20,630 nucleotides of DNA from a virus, in IMG/VR virus record IMGVR_UViG_3300027788_002317, positions 1 through 20,630 of that record, one strand, 5' to 3'. Position 1 is the first letter of the stretch; every line of letters starts with the position of its first letter. Below, in pieces: positions 5,719 through 20,423 of this stretch. The position numbers and the translations under genes are program-made. The notes beneath the pieces are model-generated. The model was not told where the DNA came from and searched no databases. It saw nothing but the letters and a program-made list of their open reading frames with translations.

Positions 5719-7470
5719 CTACTCGACAAAATTAATGCCAGGTTGTTCTAAGTCTGGTTGTAATCTGTAATCTGCTGTGAGTTCCTCTCCTTTAGATATT
5801 GGTACTGTGGTTACTAAGAAACGTGAATTATCTTTTAATTCGTTCTTACAATTAGGTTTACCTGAATGGTTATAAGATTTACCTAATTCCGTAAAGGTAT
5901 AGTTAGAGTCTGATATGTCATGTAATTTACCTACATTCACACCCAAGGGTAAGTCAGTTGAGGCAAAAACACCTTTACCGTGTATATTGCTATTATCAAC
6001 GTAGTAAGACGGAGTGTCTACCATCTCTGTTAGGATACCTAACAAACTACACTCAGACAATTGACTAGTATTAACTTTTTCTTTTAATTTGATTACAAAT
6101 GAGTTCTGTATTCTTTTAAGTAAATCTACATATGGTGTGTCACCACCTCCTTTACTTTTGTATGACCCTTTTTGTGGGTTTCTTTTTCCTCGTTTATAAA
6201 AGTTAAGACCAGATATATTAGTTATACATTTATGTCCTCCAGAATTAGAGTTTATTACATCCCAAGATGTAACACCAATCCTATCTAATAAAGCCTTTTG
6301 TTTTTCACTTAGTCTAGGCCAAGGAGTGTCTAAAATACTTCTAATTATTTTACCGTAGTTACCACTCTCATCCGGCATTCCTATTAATTTATCACCATAT
6401 AAAGCATATAAATCAGATGTTTTAAACCCTATACTATCATCGTTAACTTTAGTTTCACTTACTCTTTTAATTACAGAAAGTGGGACAACATAGTTTTTAA
6501 GCTCAGATTCAAACTGACTTAACACTTCTTTTGATATATCACCTAAGTTAACACCTTTTAAAGCTCTATCACTTTTAAATGGGTTACAGGAAGCTTGAAC
6601 TAACCCCATAGGCCACGCTATAACAATAAAATCAGCATCTGGATAAATCTTAAATGGTGTGTAACGGTCGTAAGAACCTGGTTTAAATAATGCACCCCCA
6701 CCATATTGTACAATAATATTATCTTCTAACCTTAAATTATTACTTTGTGTTTGTTTTTTAACATAGTTATCTTGGTTTTGTTTCATCTCTTCAGGTGTAG
6801 CAAATCCATTTTTCTTTGCGAAAGAATTAATATTTGTAAATATGTTTAATAAAGATGGTGTTGAGTTCATTACTAGGTATTCTAAAAACCCAGGTTTATT
6901 CTTATAAGCCAATAATAATTTATTTGTTAATAACCCTAGTACCCATTTATTTTTAGGTAAACTACCGTCCTCATCAAACTTATAAAGATAATTCATAACA
7001 TCATCTGGTGTTAGAGAGTTAGAAGCGTAGTCCGCACTATCTACAGTAGAAATCATCATAATATCTTCATTAGGGAATATATCTTGAGGGCTAACTATTT
7101 GAGAGACAGTCTCAACATTAGAACGAGCACCCCTAAATTGTGTGGAAGTTTCATCTTCTACCCCTGTTTGACTATCGTGGTGGTCTGTGTGAATAGTGAA
7201 TATTGGTTTTCCGTGGGCAAAATCTACTAACACTGGCATTACGTCCCCATTTGCAGAAGGTTTGGACACAGAAAATTCTTTATCACCATATTGTATCACA
7301 TGGGAATCGATTACAGTGATACCGTACTTCTCTAGGTATTCTTTCATTGCTATTGCAGTTACAACCCCATCTAAGTCTTGATGAAAATATATTTCTGCTT
7401 TAGGGTATCTATTTGCTATTGCATTGATATCTCTAATCCCACTCTCTTTTATTAATCTTTTGTTTTTCAT
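5719..7470 (-). CDS. DHH-family phosphoesterase fused to a C-terminal SET domain
   Basis: The 583-residue protein combines two domains. Residues about 24-150 carry the DHH superfamily metal motifs: HQDLDG (30-35), a hydrophobic strand ending in D83 (VLVDF), DHH itself (96-98, in IHTDHHDS) and VDSAD (143-147). Family members hydrolyse phosphodiesters or short oligonucleotides with two Mn ions. Residues about 488-570 form a SET domain: NIHGKGVFAS, then YNHSGKPNC (533-541), then GEELTADY (561-568). These are the SAM-binding and catalytic signatures of protein lysine methyltransferases. The middle (150-480) has no family I recognise. The N-terminus MKNKRLIKES contains an I-K-E site like those of packaged T4 proteins. 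TATTTAT lies 5 bases before the ATG. The frame is intact, so the fusion looks genuine. Confidence 0.75.
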   Translation of the reverse strand: MKNKRLIKESGIRDINAIANRYPKAEIYFHQDLDGVVTAIAMKEYLEKYGITVIDSHVIQYGDKEFSVSKPSANGDVMPVLVDFAHGKPIFTIHTDHHDSQTGVEDETSTQFRGARSNVETVSQIVSPQDIFPNEDIMMISTVDSADYASNSLTPDDVMNYLYKFDEDGSLPKNKWVLGLLTNKLLLAYKNKPGFLEYLVMNSTPSLLNIFTNINSFAKKNGFATPEEMKQNQDNYVKKQTQSNNLRLEDNIIVQYGGGALFKPGSYDRYTPFKIYPDADFIVIAWPMGLVQASCNPFKSDRALKGVNLGDISKEVLSQFESELKNYVVPLSVIKRVSETKVNDDSIGFKTSDLYALYGDKLIGMPDESGNYGKIIRSILDTPWPRLSEKQKALLDRIGVTSWDVINSNSGGHKCITNISGLNFYKRGKRNPQKGSYKSKGGGDTPYVDLLKRIQNSFVIKLKEKVNTSQLSECSLLGILTEMVDTPSYYVDNSNIHGKGVFASTDLPLGVNVGKLHDISDSNYTFTELGKSYNHSGKPNCKNELKDNSRFLVTTVPISKGEELTADYRLQPDLEQPGINFVE

Positions 7471-8124: not shown

Positions 8125-8448
8125 CTACTTTTTAAGTTCTCTATTAAGATACCACATTGCTTTCTTTAAGTCTTGTTTTAAATCGTCTTTTTTCCCTGCA
8201 CGAGAAATATACTTAACAACATTACCTAAATTAAAATTTAAGTCCCAAGCTTCAATAACTTTTATTGCTTCATACATATTATCTTCACCACCATAGTGGA
8301 TTGGGTGTTCAACCTTCTCTATACCCAACTTTCTATTGTATGCTATAATGTCTTCTTGTGTTGGGTAATTTTTGTCCCAGTTGGTATTGGGGTTTTCAGT
8401 TTGTTGGTCCCATTGAGTATTTTTTCCTATTTCTTTATTTTTTTCCAT
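8125..8448 (-). CDS. DUF3310 family protein (T7 gp1.7-like)
   Basis: The 107-residue protein has the DUF3310 signature in its C-terminal half: HPIHYGG, EAIKVIEAW, FNLGNVVKYISRAGKK and DLKKAMWYLNRELKK. This small domain is common in tailed phages. In T7 the related gp1.7 is reported to be a nucleotide kinase acting on dGMP/dTMP, so a role in phage nucleotide supply is plausible but not shown here. The N-terminal 45 residues are polar and low in complexity (NTQWDQQTENPNTNWD). The ATG overlaps the end of the L-2-hydroxyglutarate oxidase gene by 14 bases, which implies translational coupling. No hairpin is seen between it and the lysozyme. Confidence 0.85.
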   Translation of the reverse strand: MEKNKEIGKNTQWDQQTENPNTNWDKNYPTQEDIIAYNRKLGIEKVEHPIHYGGEDNMYEAIKVIEAWDLNFNLGNVVKYISRAGKKDDLKQDLKKAMWYLNRELKK

Positions 8449-9670
8449 TATTTTTGTTGTCTAAATTAAAATTTTTATTTATAAAATTTACCACTTCATC
8501 ACCTATAGATAGACATGCGGTCGCCGCGGGAGAAGGAGCGTTAAGTATGTGGATATTGTTATTGTGCTTAACTATTTTAAAGTCCTCTACTATAGTACCA
8601 TCAATATCTAGTACAGTTGCACGGACCCCACACTTACCTACGACTAAATCATCCATTTCTAATGAAGGGACCATTTTTTGTAACTCCCTTAAAAATAATC
8701 TTTTAGAAAAAGCTCTTTTATATTCCGTTAACCCAAAACGCCAATGTTTAAAAAATAAACGTAAAGTACCTAAAAAAGTCAAAGATTCCCAAGTGTCCCT
8801 CCAGCTAAAAGAAGTTTTTGTGTAACCTTCACGTTTAAATGTAAAAACAGCGTTGGGTCCACATTCCACACTACCATCAAACATTCTTGTAAAGTGTACA
8901 CCTAAAAATGGAAATTGAGGATTCGGTACTGGGTAGATTAGATTTTTTATTTTATATAGTGAGTTTTCCTTTATGTTATAATAATCTCCCCTAAAACCAA
9001 CTACTTTAGAATCTAATTCTACACCATCTTTTTTTGCCAACCTATCAGCAAATAAACCACCACAAAAGATAGAATGTTTAGTGTGAATAACACTATCCTG
9101 TAATATTAATTTTTCTTTTTCTATGTGGATAACTTCTGAATTGGTAGAGACACAACTTTTTGGGTTGATGGTTGTAATTAATTCACTTAATTTTTTAGTG
9201 ACCCCTTTATAGTCTATTATTCCTGACTCAGGTACAAATAGAGCTGACTTACCCTCAGCAAATGGTTCTATAGTTTTTATTTCTTTACTGTAAAGTAATT
9301 TTAATCCCTTTAGACCATTTTTTTTACCATTCTTTTTTAGGGACTTTAATTTTAGTGTTTCTTTGTCGTTAGTCGCTAATACTATTTTACCACAAATATC
9401 ATGTGTTATTTTATGTTTCTTAGCAAACTTAACTAACTGTTTTCTACCATCCACACAATTTTTAGCTCGATAACTACCAGGTTTATAATATAGTCCAGAA
9501 TGAATTACACCAGAATTTCTCCCAGTTTGATGAAATGCTACTTCATTTTCTTTTTCTAATACTATTAAAGAAAGGTTAGGGTGTTTTAGTTGTAACTTAT
9601 AAGCTGTCGCAAGACCAATAATCCCCCCACCTACTATAGCGACATCGTATTTTAAATTATTGTGACTCAT
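8435..9670 (-). CDS. lhgO: L-2-hydroxyglutarate oxidase (FAD-dependent)
   Basis: The enzyme oxidises L-2-hydroxyglutarate to 2-oxoglutarate with FAD. The N-terminus YDVAIVGGGIIGLATAYKL is the Rossmann FAD motif (GxGxxG at about 14-19), followed by a Glu ending strand 2 (VLEKE). HQTGRNSGVIHSGLYYKPGS (about 47-66) is the signature that sets LhgO apart from other DAO-family oxidases. The C-terminus has CGVRATVLD and NAPSPAATACLSIG. I chose ATG 9670 (411 residues, the normal family length); an upstream in-frame ATG at 9712 would add a poor, overlapping stretch. The start overlaps the upstream gene by 14 bases and the end overlaps DUF3310 by 14 bases, a matched coupling pattern. All visible family motifs are intact, so I expect activity. 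Such a gene is unusual in a phage and may top up 2-oxoglutarate during infection. Confidence 0.88.
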   Translation of the reverse strand: MSHNNLKYDVAIVGGGIIGLATAYKLQLKHPNLSLIVLEKENEVAFHQTGRNSGVIHSGLYYKPGSYRAKNCVDGRKQLVKFAKKHKITHDICGKIVLATNDKETLKLKSLKKNGKKNGLKGLKLLYSKEIKTIEPFAEGKSALFVPESGIIDYKGVTKKLSELITTINPKSCVSTNSEVIHIEKEKLILQDSVIHTKHSIFCGGLFADRLAKKDGVELDSKVVGFRGDYYNIKENSLYKIKNLIYPVPNPQFPFLGVHFTRMFDGSVECGPNAVFTFKREGYTKTSFSWRDTWESLTFLGTLRLFFKHWRFGLTEYKRAFSKRLFLRELQKMVPSLEMDDLVVGKCGVRATVLDIDGTIVEDFKIVKHNNNIHILNAPSPAATACLSIGDEVVNFINKNFNLDNKNNGKK

Positions 9671-9980
9671 CTGAACCAGAACCAACAGGTGATAGAATAT
9701 CTTTGTATTCACCCTCTAAGGTTTTTATCAAATCCAACACTCTAGATTGTAAGTCTTCAACTTTTTTAACATCACTTTTCATAACACTAATAAGTTCTAC
9801 TTTGGTTTCCACATCTCCCGGTAGAATTAATACCTTATAACCAAAATCGTTCATTAGTTTTTGAGCAAAAGCTCTAAGTTCTGCTTCAGGTGGTACCCTT
9901 AATAATTGCACCACTAAAATTGGTTCATATTTTTCCTCCACTAATTTAATTAAATTATCTAATACTTTTGTTTCTTCCAT
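9657..9980 (-). CDS. Unknown small protein between rmlA-like and lhgO
   Basis: I recognise no family in this 107-residue protein. It begins with a helix (MEETKVLDNLIKLVEEK), then a hydrophobic strand (YEPILVVQLLRV), a PPEAELRAFAQKLM helix and a second strand (YKVLILPGDVETKVELISV). This alternating pattern would suit a small alpha/beta domain. The C-terminal half is a predicted charged helix (VKKVEDLQSRVLDLIKTLEGEYK), possibly a coiled coil, with a flexible GSGSDESQ tail. The start is 11 bases after the stop of the RmlA-like gene, and the end overlaps lhgO. It therefore sits inside the metabolic transcript, but nothing shows its role. Confidence 0.65.
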   Translation of the reverse strand: MEETKVLDNLIKLVEEKYEPILVVQLLRVPPEAELRAFAQKLMNDFGYKVLILPGDVETKVELISVMKSDVKKVEDLQSRVLDLIKTLEGEYKDILSPVGSGSDESQ

Positions 9981-9991
9981 TTTTATATTTT

Positions 9992-10807
9992 TTATTTATT
10001 ACTTATTTTTGATTTACCATACTCACCATCAGCTCCAACCATTGGAAGTGGTGACTGGCAGTTATTTTCACACGAACATAATTTTTTATTTGACACTAAA
10101 GATGACGCCTTTAATAAACTCTCAAAGGTACCAGCATCCGACCACCAAGAACTTAAAAAATGACAACTCATTAACCTATCTTTCACATAGAAATTATTCA
10201 CATCTGTAATTTCTAACTCACCTCTATCTGAAGGTGTTAAATTTTTAATATAATTAAATACTTTATTGTCATAAACATATAAACCAGTAACACAGAAATT
10301 AGATTTTGGATTAGATGGCTTTTCTTCAATTGATACCACACTACACTCATCACCAGTTTTTATTTCCGCCACACCGAATCTTTCTGGGTCATGAACCTCC
10401 TTTAAAAATATTCTAGACCCACCATCAAAATCACTTAAATCAGAGGACGTAAGTTCATCATCAAATATGTTGTCACCTAAACAAACTGCTACATTTGAAG
10501 TACCGACAAAACGCTCAGTAAGAGCCAAAGCGTGAGCAATACCTCCTGCCTCATCTTGTATTTCATATGAGAGTCTAACGTTAAAGTCTCTCCCACTCCC
10601 TAAGAGGTTTAATATATCTCCACAGTGTTCTCTACCAGAAACTATCATAATGTCCTTACAACCCAGTTTAATTAAGGTCTGTAAAGGGTAATAAATCATA
10701 GGTTTATCGTAAACCGGTAATAGATGCTTGTTTGTCACTTTAGTTAACGGGTACAACCTACTTCCTGTACCACCCGCAAGAATAACTCCTTTTAATTTTT
10801 TTGCCAT
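9992..10807 (-). CDS. Glucose-1-phosphate thymidylyltransferase family protein (RmlA-like)
   Basis: The 271-residue protein carries the sugar-1-phosphate nucleotidyltransferase motifs: KGVILAGGTGSRLYPLT (6-22, nucleotide binding), LLPVYDKPMIYYPL (29-42, catalytic Lys), QDEAGGIAHA (84-93), CLGDN (109-113), IEEKPSNPKSNF (sugar phosphate) and WWSDAGTFESLL. RmlA makes dTDP-glucose, the precursor of dTDP-rhamnose and related surface sugars. It is somewhat shorter than bacterial RmlA (about 290) and ends in a short Cys-bearing tail (CSCENNC) that could bind metal or be a lineage quirk. No RmlB, C or D is in the window, so its product presumably feeds a host pathway or genes elsewhere. It heads the minus-strand group, back to back with the DUF932 gene. 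UTP-glucose specificity cannot be excluded. Confidence 0.85.
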   Translation of the reverse strand: MAKKLKGVILAGGTGSRLYPLTKVTNKHLLPVYDKPMIYYPLQTLIKLGCKDIMIVSGREHCGDILNLLGSGRDFNVRLSYEIQDEAGGIAHALALTERFVGTSNVAVCLGDNIFDDELTSSDLSDFDGGSRIFLKEVHDPERFGVAEIKTGDECSVVSIEEKPSNPKSNFCVTGLYVYDNKVFNYIKNLTPSDRGELEITDVNNFYVKDRLMSCHFLSSWWSDAGTFESLLKASSLVSNKKLCSCENNCQSPLPMVGADGEYGKSKISNK

Positions 10808-14558: not shown

Positions 14559-15635
14559 ATGAAGATAAAATTAGAGTATGTTTGGTTAGATGGGTACATA
14601 CCAGAACCTAACATAAGAAGTAAAACTAAAATTTGGGATTTCGACCCACTAACATCGCCGAAATACCAACCACAAAGAAAAATGTCAATAGACGGTAAGT
14701 TAATACCTGTACCTAACGAATTACCGGATTGGTCATTTGACGGAAGCTCAACTAAACAAGCTAAAGGTAACAATTCGGATTGTATACTTTCACCAGTAAA
14801 AGTAGTTAGGGACCCACAAAGGTTAGATGCTTTTTTAGTTTTATGTGAAGTATATGATTCTAAAGGTAAAGCTCACCCAACTAACAACAGGGAAGGGTTA
14901 TCTAAAGATGAACAATATTGGTTTGGTTTTGAACAAGAGTATGTGTTACTTAAAAACGGAAAACCATTAGGTTTCCCTGTAGATGGGCACCCAGAACCAC
15001 AAGGTAGGTATTACTGTGGGGTTGGTTTTGAATCTGTAGAAGGTAGGGACATTGTAGAAGAACATTTACAAGTGTGTTTAGAGTCTGGGTTAAATATTAC
15101 AGGTGTAAATGCTGAAGTAATGCTTGGACAATGGGAATATCAGATTTTTGGTAGAGGTTGTACAAACGCTTCAGATGATTTATGGTTATCTAGATATTTT
15201 TTAAATAGGATAACTGAAAAATATGGGGTTAAGGTTGAGTTGCACCCTAAACCAGTAGATGGAGATTGGAACGGGTCAGGAATGCACTGTAATTTTTCTA
15301 GTGACCTAATGAGAGAGACTGGTGGGGAAGAATTATTCAATACAATTTGTGATGAACTAGGTAAAAAACATAATGAAGATATTATGGTTTATGGTTCCGA
15401 TAATGAATATAGGTTAACTGGATTACACGAAACCCAGTCCATGGATAAATTTACTTATGGGGTCTCTGACAGAGGAGCTTCAATACGGATTCCAATTCAT
15501 ACGGTGGAAAACAATTGGAAAGGTTATTTAGAAGATAGAAGACCAGCAAGTAACTCTGACCCTTACCAGGTAGCTTCAAAAATATTTAAAACTATTGAGA
15601 AAGTAGAAAAAGAATTTAGAACCATAACCGCTTAA
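14559..15635 (+). CDS. Type II glutamine synthetase
   Basis: The 358-residue enzyme joins ammonia to glutamate using ATP. It is the short, eukaryote-like GSII type, which also occurs in Bacteroidota. Motifs in order: the beta-grasp start (LEYVWLDGY), WSFDGSSTKQA (58-68), FEQEYVL (124-130, metal ligands), NAEVMLGQWEYQI (184-196), GDWNGSGMHCNFS (235-247, ATP site), RLTGLHET (285-292), GVSDRGASIRIP (301-312) and EDRRPASNSDPY (325-336). All main ligands are present; one notable change is Asp for the usual Asn before RGASIRIP. Length is normal. No adenylylation loop is expected in this type. It is likely cotranscribed with its downstream neighbours. The probable role is supplying glutamine for phage nucleotide and protein synthesis. 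Confidence 0.92.
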   Translation: MKIKLEYVWLDGYIPEPNIRSKTKIWDFDPLTSPKYQPQRKMSIDGKLIPVPNELPDWSFDGSSTKQAKGNNSDCILSPVKVVRDPQRLDAFLVLCEVYDSKGKAHPTNNREGLSKDEQYWFGFEQEYVLLKNGKPLGFPVDGHPEPQGRYYCGVGFESVEGRDIVEEHLQVCLESGLNITGVNAEVMLGQWEYQIFGRGCTNASDDLWLSRYFLNRITEKYGVKVELHPKPVDGDWNGSGMHCNFSSDLMRETGGEELFNTICDELGKKHNEDIMVYGSDNEYRLTGLHETQSMDKFTYGVSDRGASIRIPIHTVENNWKGYLEDRRPASNSDPYQVASKIFKTIEKVEKEFRTITA

Positions 15636-17977: not shown

Positions 17978-17988
17978 ACGTATTATTT

Positions 17989-17996
17989 TATTTATA
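17989..17996 (+). promoter_or_regulatory. TATTTATA element upstream of the HAD gene
   Basis: TATTTATA lies 15 bases before the ATG at 18012 and 11 bases after the terminator T-run. It shares the core found before 5668, 7470, 8094, 18681 and 20453. Because a terminator precedes it, some promoter is needed here, which supports the element. Confidence 0.35.
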
Positions 17997-18011
17997 AAAA
18001 ATAAAAATAAG

Positions 18012-18371
18012 ATGAAAACAATAATATGTGATATAGATGGTACTCTAGTTAAGTATCGAAAAGACGCTAAAGGAATTATGATATACGGACATCAGGAATT
18101 ACCAGGTGTTGTAGAAAAATTAAACCGTTGGGAAAATATGGGATGTAAAATAATCTTAATTACCGGTAGAAGAGAAAGTTTAAGAGAAGTGACTGAAAAC
18201 GCTCTAGTAAATCTAGGAATTCCTTTTGATATGTTATTAATGGGGTTTGCTGACACAGGTAGAATATTAATAAATGATGAAGCTGGTAAAACTAAAGCTC
18301 ATTCAGTTTCTTTACAAAGGGACGAGGGGTTTGAAAACTTTAACTGGGAAACCATAGGGTTGACAAACTAA
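18012..18371 (+). CDS. HAD-superfamily phosphatase-like protein
   Basis: The 119-residue protein has HAD motif I at its N-terminus (MKTIICDIDGTLVKY, nucleophile Asp 7 and acid Asp 9), motif II ILITGRRE (Thr) and a likely motif III/IV region at GRILINDEAGKTKAHSV. It has no large cap domain, like small capless phosphatases and the phosphatase half of polynucleotide kinases. The substrate is unknown: a nucleic-acid end, sugar phosphate or nucleotide are all possible. An upstream in-frame ATG at 17958 would put the start inside the terminator, so I use 18012, which has the A-rich leader AAAATAAG. The next gene begins one base past its stop. Confidence 0.8.
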   Translation: MKTIICDIDGTLVKYRKDAKGIMIYGHQELPGVVEKLNRWENMGCKIILITGRRESLREVTENALVNLGIPFDMLLMGFADTGRILINDEAGKTKAHSVSLQRDEGFENFNWETIGLTN

Positions 18372-18616: not shown

Positions 18617-18650
18617 TTGACACAACTGTATTTTTACCATATATTTATAT
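18617..18650 (+). promoter_or_regulatory. Strong sigma70-like promoter upstream of the Ro-like gene
   Basis: TTGACA (18617-18622), a 17-base spacer and TATATT (18640-18645) match the Escherichia-type -35/-10 consensus at 11 of 12 positions. This is unusual in a Bacteroidota-type genome. TATTTATA (18642-18649) overlaps the -10, and TATATTTA resembles the Bacteroidota -7 box without its final G. Transcription would start near 18652, about 29 bases before the ATG. The -35 begins 5 bases past the preceding stop and no terminator lies between. Confidence 0.55.
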
Positions 18651-18680: not shown

Positions 18681-20114
18681 ATGAATTTAATCGACGCCAT
18701 ACAACAAAAAGACACAACGACTGAGAACGGGATGACCACAAACTCAACCTCACTCAATCACTGTGTTAATCTATTTTTTCAAATAGGAGCGATGCGTGGT
18801 GCGAGCAAAGACAGACTTCACGCCAAGGTTTCGAAAGCTTTTAATGAAGACCCTCTCACAACAATTAGAATTATTTTTTGGGCACGTGATGTCCGTGGTG
18901 GAGCTGGTGAGAGACAAATCTTCAGAGATTGTTTATTGTGGTTATGTGACAATCACAGAGAAGTACTACATAAAAACATTCACTTAATTAGTGAATACGG
19001 TAGGTGGGATGACGTTTTAACGTTAGTTGGGACTCAAAACTGTTGGGATACAGCACTTGATTTAGTTAAGGTCGCTTTGGTTAACAAAGATGGGTTATGT
19101 GCTAAATGGATGCCAAGAAAAGGTAGGAAAGCGAATATTATTCGAAGATACCTTAAAGTATCACCAAAAACATACCGTAAGTTATTAGTAGGACTTACAA
19201 ATGTGGTTGAAACCAAGATGTGTGCAAAGGACTGGTCAAGTATCGAGTATTCGAAACTTCCGTCCTTAGCCTCGTCAAGGTATCAAAAATCTTTCATGAA
19301 TAATGATGAAGAGAGGTATGAGGAGTACAAAAGAGCTTTAGTTGATGGTAAAACTACTATTAACGCGGGAGCTGTATACCCTTATGACATTACTAAATCC
19401 ATCAAATATGGTGGAGAGAAGGATGTTGCGCAAGCACAATGGGATTCTCTTCCAAATTACATGGAAGATATTAATGAAAGAGTATTACCTGTAGTTGATG
19501 TATCAGGTTCAATGGGAAACTCCGCAGGAAATAACGGTAACGTTACTTGTATGGATGTTTCAACATCATTGGGTCTGTATATCTCAGAGAGAAATGAAGG
19601 TGTCTTCAAAAACGCATTCATAACATTCTCTTCGAAACCACAACTACAATTACTTGAAGGTTCATTAGCCAATAGGTTACATGAATTACAGAGAGCAGAC
19701 TGGGGAATGAATACTGATTTACAAGCAACGTTTAAGTTAATCTTAGACCAAGCGGTAAAAAATAATGTTCCAGTATCAGAGATGCCAACCAAAGTTCTTA
19801 TCCTTTCGGATATGGAGTTTGATGAAGCAATCAGTGGTGACTATGACAGAGTATCAGAATGGAACCCAACTGCGCAAGAAATGATTAAAGGGATGTATGA
19901 GGAAGCTGGTTACAAAATGCCAGGGATTGTTTATTGGAATATCCAAAGTAGACAAGACAAGGTACCAACTAGTTTCGACGAGATGGGAACGGCATTAGTA
20001 TCAGGATTCTCACCCTCAATCATGAAAAGTATATTAAGTTGTCAGGATATGACACCTTATAATATGATGATGGAGACTATCGGGTCCGCTCGATATGAAC
20101 CAATCAAGGTCTAA
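18681..20114 (+). CDS. Ro60/TROVE-like DUF2828 protein with vWA domain
   Basis: The 477-residue protein has an N-terminal helical-repeat region with DUF2828/TROVE blocks: NSTSLNHCVNLFFQIGAMRG (21-40), DPLTTIRIIFWARDVRGGAGERQIF (57-81) and ISEYGRWDDVLTL (103-115). A C-terminal von Willebrand A domain has the MIDAS residues DVSGSM (273-278), Thr in GMNTD (T345) and Asp in LSDMEF (D377). Ro60 relatives form a ring that binds misfolded RNA inside and Y RNA outside; the bacterial Rsr protein of Deinococcus works with Y RNA and PNPase. DUF2828 proteins are less studied, so an RNA role is inferred. Codon use looks less AT-rich than in neighbouring genes, hinting at strong expression or separate origin. 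About 270 bases of hairpin-rich non-coding sequence follow the stop with no gap. Confidence 0.82.
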   Translation: MNLIDAIQQKDTTTENGMTTNSTSLNHCVNLFFQIGAMRGASKDRLHAKVSKAFNEDPLTTIRIIFWARDVRGGAGERQIFRDCLLWLCDNHREVLHKNIHLISEYGRWDDVLTLVGTQNCWDTALDLVKVALVNKDGLCAKWMPRKGRKANIIRRYLKVSPKTYRKLLVGLTNVVETKMCAKDWSSIEYSKLPSLASSRYQKSFMNNDEERYEEYKRALVDGKTTINAGAVYPYDITKSIKYGGEKDVAQAQWDSLPNYMEDINERVLPVVDVSGSMGNSAGNNGNVTCMDVSTSLGLYISERNEGVFKNAFITFSSKPQLQLLEGSLANRLHELQRADWGMNTDLQATFKLILDQAVKNNVPVSEMPTKVLILSDMEFDEAISGDYDRVSEWNPTAQEMIKGMYEEAGYKMPGIVYWNIQSRQDKVPTSFDEMGTALVSGFSPSIMKSILSCQDMTPYNMMMETIGSARYEPIKV

Positions 20115-20388
20115 TGGGTAGACCAAAGAATCTCTGCGGCAACTTAAACTAACAAGAGAGAGAGGTGGACGTTACTCCCCACCTTGTTGACAAAAAAACT
20201 CAGGGGTAATAGGTAGAAGACCTATTAAAAAAAAATCCTATGTGGAGACTTAGGCAAGCAAAATACTCAAAACTGATTCTGACTACCCAGAAGATTTAAG
20301 ACTGTTCGCGGGAAACCGCTTATATATATGAAAGGAAGATTACCGCAATCTTACAATTAACTATAATAAATTGAAACCCCTTCCTGAG
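20115..20388 (+). ncRNA. Putative structured RNA downstream of the Ro-like gene
   Basis: No convincing frame is open here, yet complementary segments are dense. Local hairpins: AGGTGG/CCACCT (20163-20168 with 20179-20184), TAATAGGT/ACCTATTA (20207-20214 with 20220-20227), GCGG-GAAA-CCGC with a GNRA loop (20308-20319) and AAGATT/AATCTT (20336-20341 with 20347-20352). Long-range pairs: TGGGTAG with CTACCCA (20115-20121 with 20283-20289) and CTCAGG with CCTGAG (20199-20204 with 20383-20388). The two long-range pairs cross, so they imply a pseudoknot or alternative folds. An intrinsic terminator follows. I do not recognise a known RNA class. It may be a Y-RNA-like partner of the Ro-like protein, a structured 3' UTR, or both. 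Confidence 0.5.
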
Positions 20389-20423
20389 AATCCCCGTATT
20401 ATAATGATATGGGGATTTTTTTT
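20389..20423 (+). terminator. Intrinsic terminator after the putative RNA
   Basis: AATCCCC (20389-20395) and GGGGATT (20411-20417) pair, with an inner TAT/ATA extension around an AT-rich loop, followed by eight T residues (20416-20423). It defines the 3' end of the Ro-like gene and RNA transcript. Confidence 0.88.

Follow-up and report, generated by a model that had tools for sequence, protein, structure and literature searches.

The end of a 20,630-nucleotide stretch of viral DNA (IMG/VR virus record IMGVR_UViG_3300027788_002317, positions 1 to 20,630; hereafter the window) raises the question of whether a phage carries both halves of a Ro ribonucleoprotein, i.e., a Ro60-like protein and a structured RNA beside it. 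Our analysis suggests that it probably does: the locus is likely to encode the protein together with an RNA composed of a handle and an exchangeable cargo, and we infer that the one binds the other.

The gene (18681–20114, plus strand) encodes a protein of 477 amino acids that matches Pfam DUF7788 (E 5e-52) and DUF2828 (E 1e-37) above the profile cut-offs and, across its full length, PHROG 850, annotated as 'RNA-binding protein' (E 4e-151). A sequence search with the protein gave no match to PF05731 (TROVE), and the Ro60-like reading therefore rests on fold rather than on family membership. The AlphaFold2 model built with an alignment of 65 relatives has a pLDDT of 84 and a pTM of 0.81 (a run without alignment reached a pLDDT of just 38), and its sole Foldseek matches against the PDB with E <1e-3 are the TROVE structure 9kop (8e-9), Ro60 with RNA (2i91; 3e-6, TMq 0.60) and Ro60 (1yvr). 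The phage protein thus shares with Ro60 and Rsr (TROVE, PF05731) a predicted α-helical ring-type part and a vWA domain bearing a MIDAS, whereas by sequence it falls in DUF2828/DUF7788. The MIDAS residues D273-x-S275-G-S277, T345 and D377 are unchanged among 65 aligned relatives, which is in agreement with the original prediction of a Ro60-like protein with an intact MIDAS. The gene had also been assigned a strong promoter of its own. A promoter-like site, TTGACA-17-TATATT, does lie ahead of it (18617–18645, plus strand) and agrees with the consensus at 11 of 12 positions, but sites of this kind show no enrichment relative to shuffled sequence (10 versus 7.0 ± 2.9), so that a strong promoter at this position is plausible rather than established. 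Ro-like proteins of this type are present in at least 682 public phage records, where they are mostly labelled hypothetical or RNA-binding.

The non-coding region (20115–20386, about 270 bases) starts right after the stop codon and is followed by an intrinsic terminator, AAUCCCC...GGGGAUU and then U8 (20389–20423), which was read from the sequence and is missing from the output of a simple terminator scan. The hairpins, the GAAA tetraloop, the two long-range pairs and the terminator described for this region are all present. Its plus strand holds no ORF of 50 amino acids or more, and insertions in relatives do not come in threes; a hidden reading frame was rejected on these grounds, and no conserved one of that size was found on the plus strand. 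What the original prediction overlooked is that the region consists of two tandem copies of a single, widespread module, with a G-rich 5' strand and the general layout [A]G-stem, 3–5 nt, C(A/G/C)GCAA, variable insert, complementary stem, UG.

All elements of the RNA lie on the plus strand. RNA domain 1 (20115–20289), conserved in relatives, comprises module 1 with a large insert and is enclosed by an additional outer helix, P1, in which UGGGUAG (20115–20121) pairs with CUACCCA (20283–20289). The stem of module 1 is formed by AGAAUC (20127–20132) and GAUUCU (20275–20280), the latter followed at 20281 by a conserved G that occurs in 98% of spacing-3 modules; the motif, identified by a scan of relatives, is CGGCAA (20137–20142) in place of the family consensus CAGCAA. 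Within the module are the hairpins AGGUGG...CCACCU (20163–20184) and AAUAGGU-AGAAG-ACCUAUU (20208–20226), which is missing from two relatives (L001 and L003). A linker hairpin, GCGG-GAAA-CCGC (20308–20319), precedes module 2 (20333–20386), which has the stem AGGAAG (20333–20338)/CUUCCU (20380–20385), the motif CCGCAA (20343–20348) and a final UG. Both CGGCAA and CCGCAA are minority variants in the module family.

The RNA region is recognizable in close relatives whose contigs reach far enough (blastn down to 1e-74), with the second RNA domain alone retained in L005. An exact 22-mer from its 3' strand recurs in 10 other viral contigs, all 10 of which also have the Ro-like gene. Compensatory changes can be read directly from the sequences: P1 becomes UGAGUAG/CUACUCA in L016 and UUAAGUA/UACUUA in L007, the module 1 stem becomes AGAAUA/UAUUCU in L016 and GGAAUC/GAUUCC in L007, and the linker hairpin GCGG/CCGC is swapped for CGCC/GGCG and CGUGA/UCACG. 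The predicted structured RNA adjoining the gene is borne out in this respect, whereas formal covariance analysis supported it weakly; on a MAFFT alignment of 11 sequences the window group yielded three double-change pairs, which did not exceed every slid control, because there are few sequences and MAFFT misaligns the divergent L007. The MAFFT columns do not support the hairpin at 20208–20226 (35% paired), because it sits at different positions in different relatives.

The module was tested against chance across the wider family. Near the gene, 226 of 352 C[A/C]GCAA motifs had an exact complement of the 6 nt located 3 nt upstream, compared with 146/1016 elsewhere and 27/352 after stems were swapped, and 211 of the 226 complement-bearing modules have a G at +2 after the stem. 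Held-out genome contigs, fetched after this count, gave 96/212 near the gene, 43/595 far from it and 20 with swapped stems. Of 198 modules, 167 have a Watson-Crick pair at the seventh position, which played no part in choosing the modules, versus 109.5 when permuted (maximum 126), with A-U, U-A and G-C all occurring. For group F, the alignment by itself yields 12 double-change cells versus 3.9 when shuffled (0/500); the count is higher still for an alignment of 29 modules, but these were picked for complementarity. A covariance model built on the 29 phage modules (R1) gave 54 matches in 77 held-out loci, every one on the strand of the gene, 52 of them within 900 nt and none inside the Ro-like gene itself. 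In the five whole bacterial genomes with any R1 match at E ≤ 0.01, all six matches adjoin the gene. Module 2 of the window scores 42.4 bits, this copy being part of the training set.

A scan of relatives placed the module beside the Ro-like gene in most of those tested: upstream in some, downstream in others and on both sides in one group. Many phages have modules directly preceding the start codon of the Ro-like gene, and another ORF sometimes intervenes. Hosts of the module-bearing phages include Bacteroidota, Listeria, Staphylococcus, E. coli, Campylobacter and Mycobacterium, and the module also occurs in bacterial contigs; the cultured phages that have it infect Listeria, Staphylococcus, E. 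coli, Enterococcus, Campylobacter and Mycobacterium, and a Lak megaphage has it as well. Among the coliphages with both gene and modules are the felixounaviruses JohannRWettstein and Bas63. Three T4-like loci (L313, L314 and L316) encode a Ro-like protein without a strict module. Modules are also found inside tRNA gene arrays: Class I-like modules (the RNA class is discussed below) lie within phage tRNA arrays of LR756503.1 at ~186.4 kb and 363.1–363.9 kb (L405, L406), where at least some 20 kb separate them from the Ro-like gene, and within tRNA arrays of the L068 genome (L407). A contig from a Lokiarchaeota MAG (L344), which may be viral or misbinned, has a Ro-like gene and two modules.

The module differs from the RNA known to accompany bacterial Ro proteins. 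No Rfam family matched the module or the RNA region at curated cut-offs, and neither YrlA (RF02553) nor any other Rfam Y RNA family matched the window region; identity with YrlA was rejected on the missing RF02553 match and the different motif. As a positive control, a TROVE-type Rsr locus (L411) scored 92 bits for YrlA and was not matched by R1. What the phage module shares with YrlA and its TROVE-type Rsr is the adjoining gene for a Ro-fold protein, and with Y RNAs in general a terminal stem as protein handle and a variable effector part that is sometimes tRNA-like; a tRNA-like domain is absent from the window RNA and present in inserts of some relatives. Y RNAs are built from a fixed handle and an exchangeable insert. 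The phage RNA has the same build, so there is good support for the view that it functions like a Y RNA, but not for the view that it is one. Low-scoring matches to CRISPR-DR5, NsiR1 and PyrR were taken as chance or terminator resemblance, because RF01414, the family of Dictyostelium Class I RNAs, is the only one to reappear at modules of other phages; its matches are sub-threshold and fall exactly at modules. The RNA had been predicted to be of a new type, which holds in that no known Y RNA or Rfam family matches it, but not in the sense of a private invention of this phage, as it recurs throughout the family and has Class I anatomy.

Dictyostelium Class I RNAs are abundant and required for normal development, and their function is unknown. 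They have been characterized by a 6-bp stem kept via compensation, a 5' G, an 11-nt motif, a variable remainder and a 3' CUGU, and were described as 'unique to dictyostelid social amoebas' (PMC7919456). The phage module has the same elements in the same arrangement, i.e., a terminal stem of about 6 bp that varies by compensation behind a conserved 5' G, an 11-nt motif that adjoins the 5' strand and ends in C..CAA (CCUUACAGCAA in the RF01414 model), a variable insert and a 3' CUG(U), and module 2 of the window fits the 42–65 nt size range. In the phage modules, including both of the window, the stem keeps its structure while its sequence is free and starts with G; C6, C9, A10 and A11 of the 11-nt motif are conserved, although the conserved U of the motif is at position 3 in amoebae (PMC7919456) and mostly at position 4 in phages. 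After the stem of spacing-3 modules, G occupies +2 in 98% and U occupies +3 in 62%, and the window has CUGA. The RF01414 model, which derives from amoeba sequences, has its top match in the window record at module 2 (20334–20386; 19.9 bits, E 0.004). Of 33 whole phage records, 24 match at E ≤ 1, and in 13 of these the gene-adjacent module ranks first, a count that comes from comparing coordinates with the loci and takes in the window and two near-identical Listeria phages. The highest phage scores, 37.1 and 33 bits, belong to modules inside tRNA gene arrays, and no phage match reaches the cut-off of 41.5 bits.

The differences are also considerable. Besides scoring below the curated cut-off, the phage modules occur in phages and bacteria adjoining a Ro-like gene, are often tandem and often carry large or tRNA-like inserts; a DUSE promoter would be unexpected in a phage, and the known partner of Class I RNA is the RRM protein Rnp1A (PMC7919456). 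That the resemblance reflects convergence on a simple stem-plus-motif design, instead of common descent or a shared partner, has close to an even chance in our judgment: the shared signal amounts to just ~10 conserved bases and a 6-bp stem, the best phage match stays at 37.1 versus 41.5 bits, and the known partner, Rnp1A, is an RRM protein (PMC7919456). Against convergence, unrelated phages yield RF01414 at the module, and there is also agreement in two features that were not used in module finding: the UG that follows the 3' strand and the A-U pair that lies outside the stem. We therefore put forward, tentatively and at somewhat less than even odds, that Class I RNAs belong to an old and widespread Ro-associated class present in phages and some bacteria, with a DUF2828/DUF7788 Ro-like protein as partner and with tRNA mimics and other cargo as exchangeable inserts directed against host RNA defence. 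The phage module and its Ro-like protein are a candidate relative and a candidate partner, respectively, for the Class I RNAs of Dictyostelium.

The inserts bear on what the particle may do. Anticodon-arm-like hairpins were found in 39 of 236 inserts (4.6 in shuffled sequences), with loops such as CUUGUAA, CUUUUAA and CUUCUAA, and T-arm-like hairpins in 41 of 236 (1.3 in shuffled sequences). Such tRNA-like inserts occur in proteobacterial and other phages; inserts of the window group are elaborate and have no tRNA-like arm. Upstream of the Ro-like gene in L071, L146, L163 and L164, inserts resemble a tRNA core in which the stem-CAGCAA handle replaces the acceptor stem, and some of this set show a D arm, an anticodon arm and a T arm. 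Downstream of the gene in L023, L029, L026 and L041, the insert of one module is an ornate RNA of 150–250 nt with many conserved bases.

Ro60 and Rsr grip the terminal stem of Y RNAs. By analogy, the phage Ro-like protein would recognize the handle, i.e., the terminal stem of 6–7 bp and variable sequence, C[A/G/C]GCAA on its 5' side and UG after it, and the insert, whether a small hairpin, a tRNA-like element or a large folded domain as in the window, would be the effector, gating the Ro ring or bringing in a partner. With lower confidence, the particle may handle tRNA-sized or misfolded RNA during infection, and handling or mimicry of tRNA-like RNA at this stage appears to be its most likely role. 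RNA decay via PNPase, as in Deinococcus, is a possible role of the putative phage particle; a tRNA-mimic, decoy or repair role would seem to fit better, given that inserts imitate anticodon and T arms and that tRNA genes are often close by. Because the two tandem modules of the window directly follow the stop codon and end at the terminator, their RNA is probably released from the 3' end of the Ro mRNA or builds up as that end.

A special case of the ribonucleoprotein explanation is that the RNA, carried by the Ro-like protein, mimics anticodon arms and thereby absorbs host anticodon nucleases or aids tRNA repair. The great excess of anticodon-arm-like loops and T arms over shuffles speaks for it, as do an RtcB-like ligase near the Listeria gene, a PNKP-like phosphatase adjoining the window gene and the competitor role proposed for YrlA (PMC7790460), but the inserts of the window itself have no tRNA-like arm, and we consider this version possible though on the unlikely side. 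Dispensing with a separate particle, one could regard the modules as cis-acting controls of the Ro-like mRNA, the protein binding its own untranslated region and thereby regulating its own synthesis or the stability of the mRNA. The position of the window RNA right after the stop codon, and of many other modules just before the start codon, would suit such an operator; however, modules lie variously upstream, downstream or on both sides of the gene, behind an intervening ORF, in tRNA arrays or ~20 kb off, and an operator needs neither inserts of at least 200 nt nor tRNA mimics, which makes cis-control improbable. Copies far from the Ro-like gene could even suggest an unrelated phage element beside it by coincidence, an explanation that linkage across phyla, in both gene orders and in held-out data renders very improbable. 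The ribonucleoprotein with handle and cargo RNA thus remains our preferred reading, and since the partner RNA can be recognized by sequence, the particle becomes testable in ordinary laboratory phages.

One such phage has already provided related observations. For the Listeria phage CKA15, the available part of the published account reports the homologous protein in purified virions, names two non-coding loci within 2 kb of its gene as the most abundant phage transcripts, and suggests Y RNAs near the gene (PMC12282133). These putative Y RNAs are described there, in the part available, without a motif or structure, unlike the module presented here. Equating our modules with the abundant CKA15 transcripts would be premature, and the modules of sister phages are closer to the gene. 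In the Listeria phages LP-124 and cka8 (L319/L320), positions 1930–2990 form a strongly folding non-coding segment of ~1 kb around a tRNA-Pro-like gene, which is possibly the highly transcribed CKA15_059–061 region. The stem-CAGCAA motif itself was not found in the open-access literature searched.

Just upstream of the Ro-like gene lies a gene for a HAD phosphatase (17988–18371, plus strand) that resembles the 3'-phosphatase domains of polynucleotide kinases, and is by its sequence a possible RNA-repair neighbour. Elsewhere the window has metabolic genes, namely an S-adenosylmethionine synthetase-like gene (1274–2377), an FAD-dependent oxidoreductase (DAO) gene (8435–9712, minus strand), a nucleotidyl transferase gene (9992–10807, minus strand) and a glutamine synthetase gene (14559–15635). 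The protein encoded at 5719–7470 (minus strand) has a C-terminal SET domain (Pfam E 1e-6), which is unusual in a phage, and an N-terminal part that appears DHH-like by eye.
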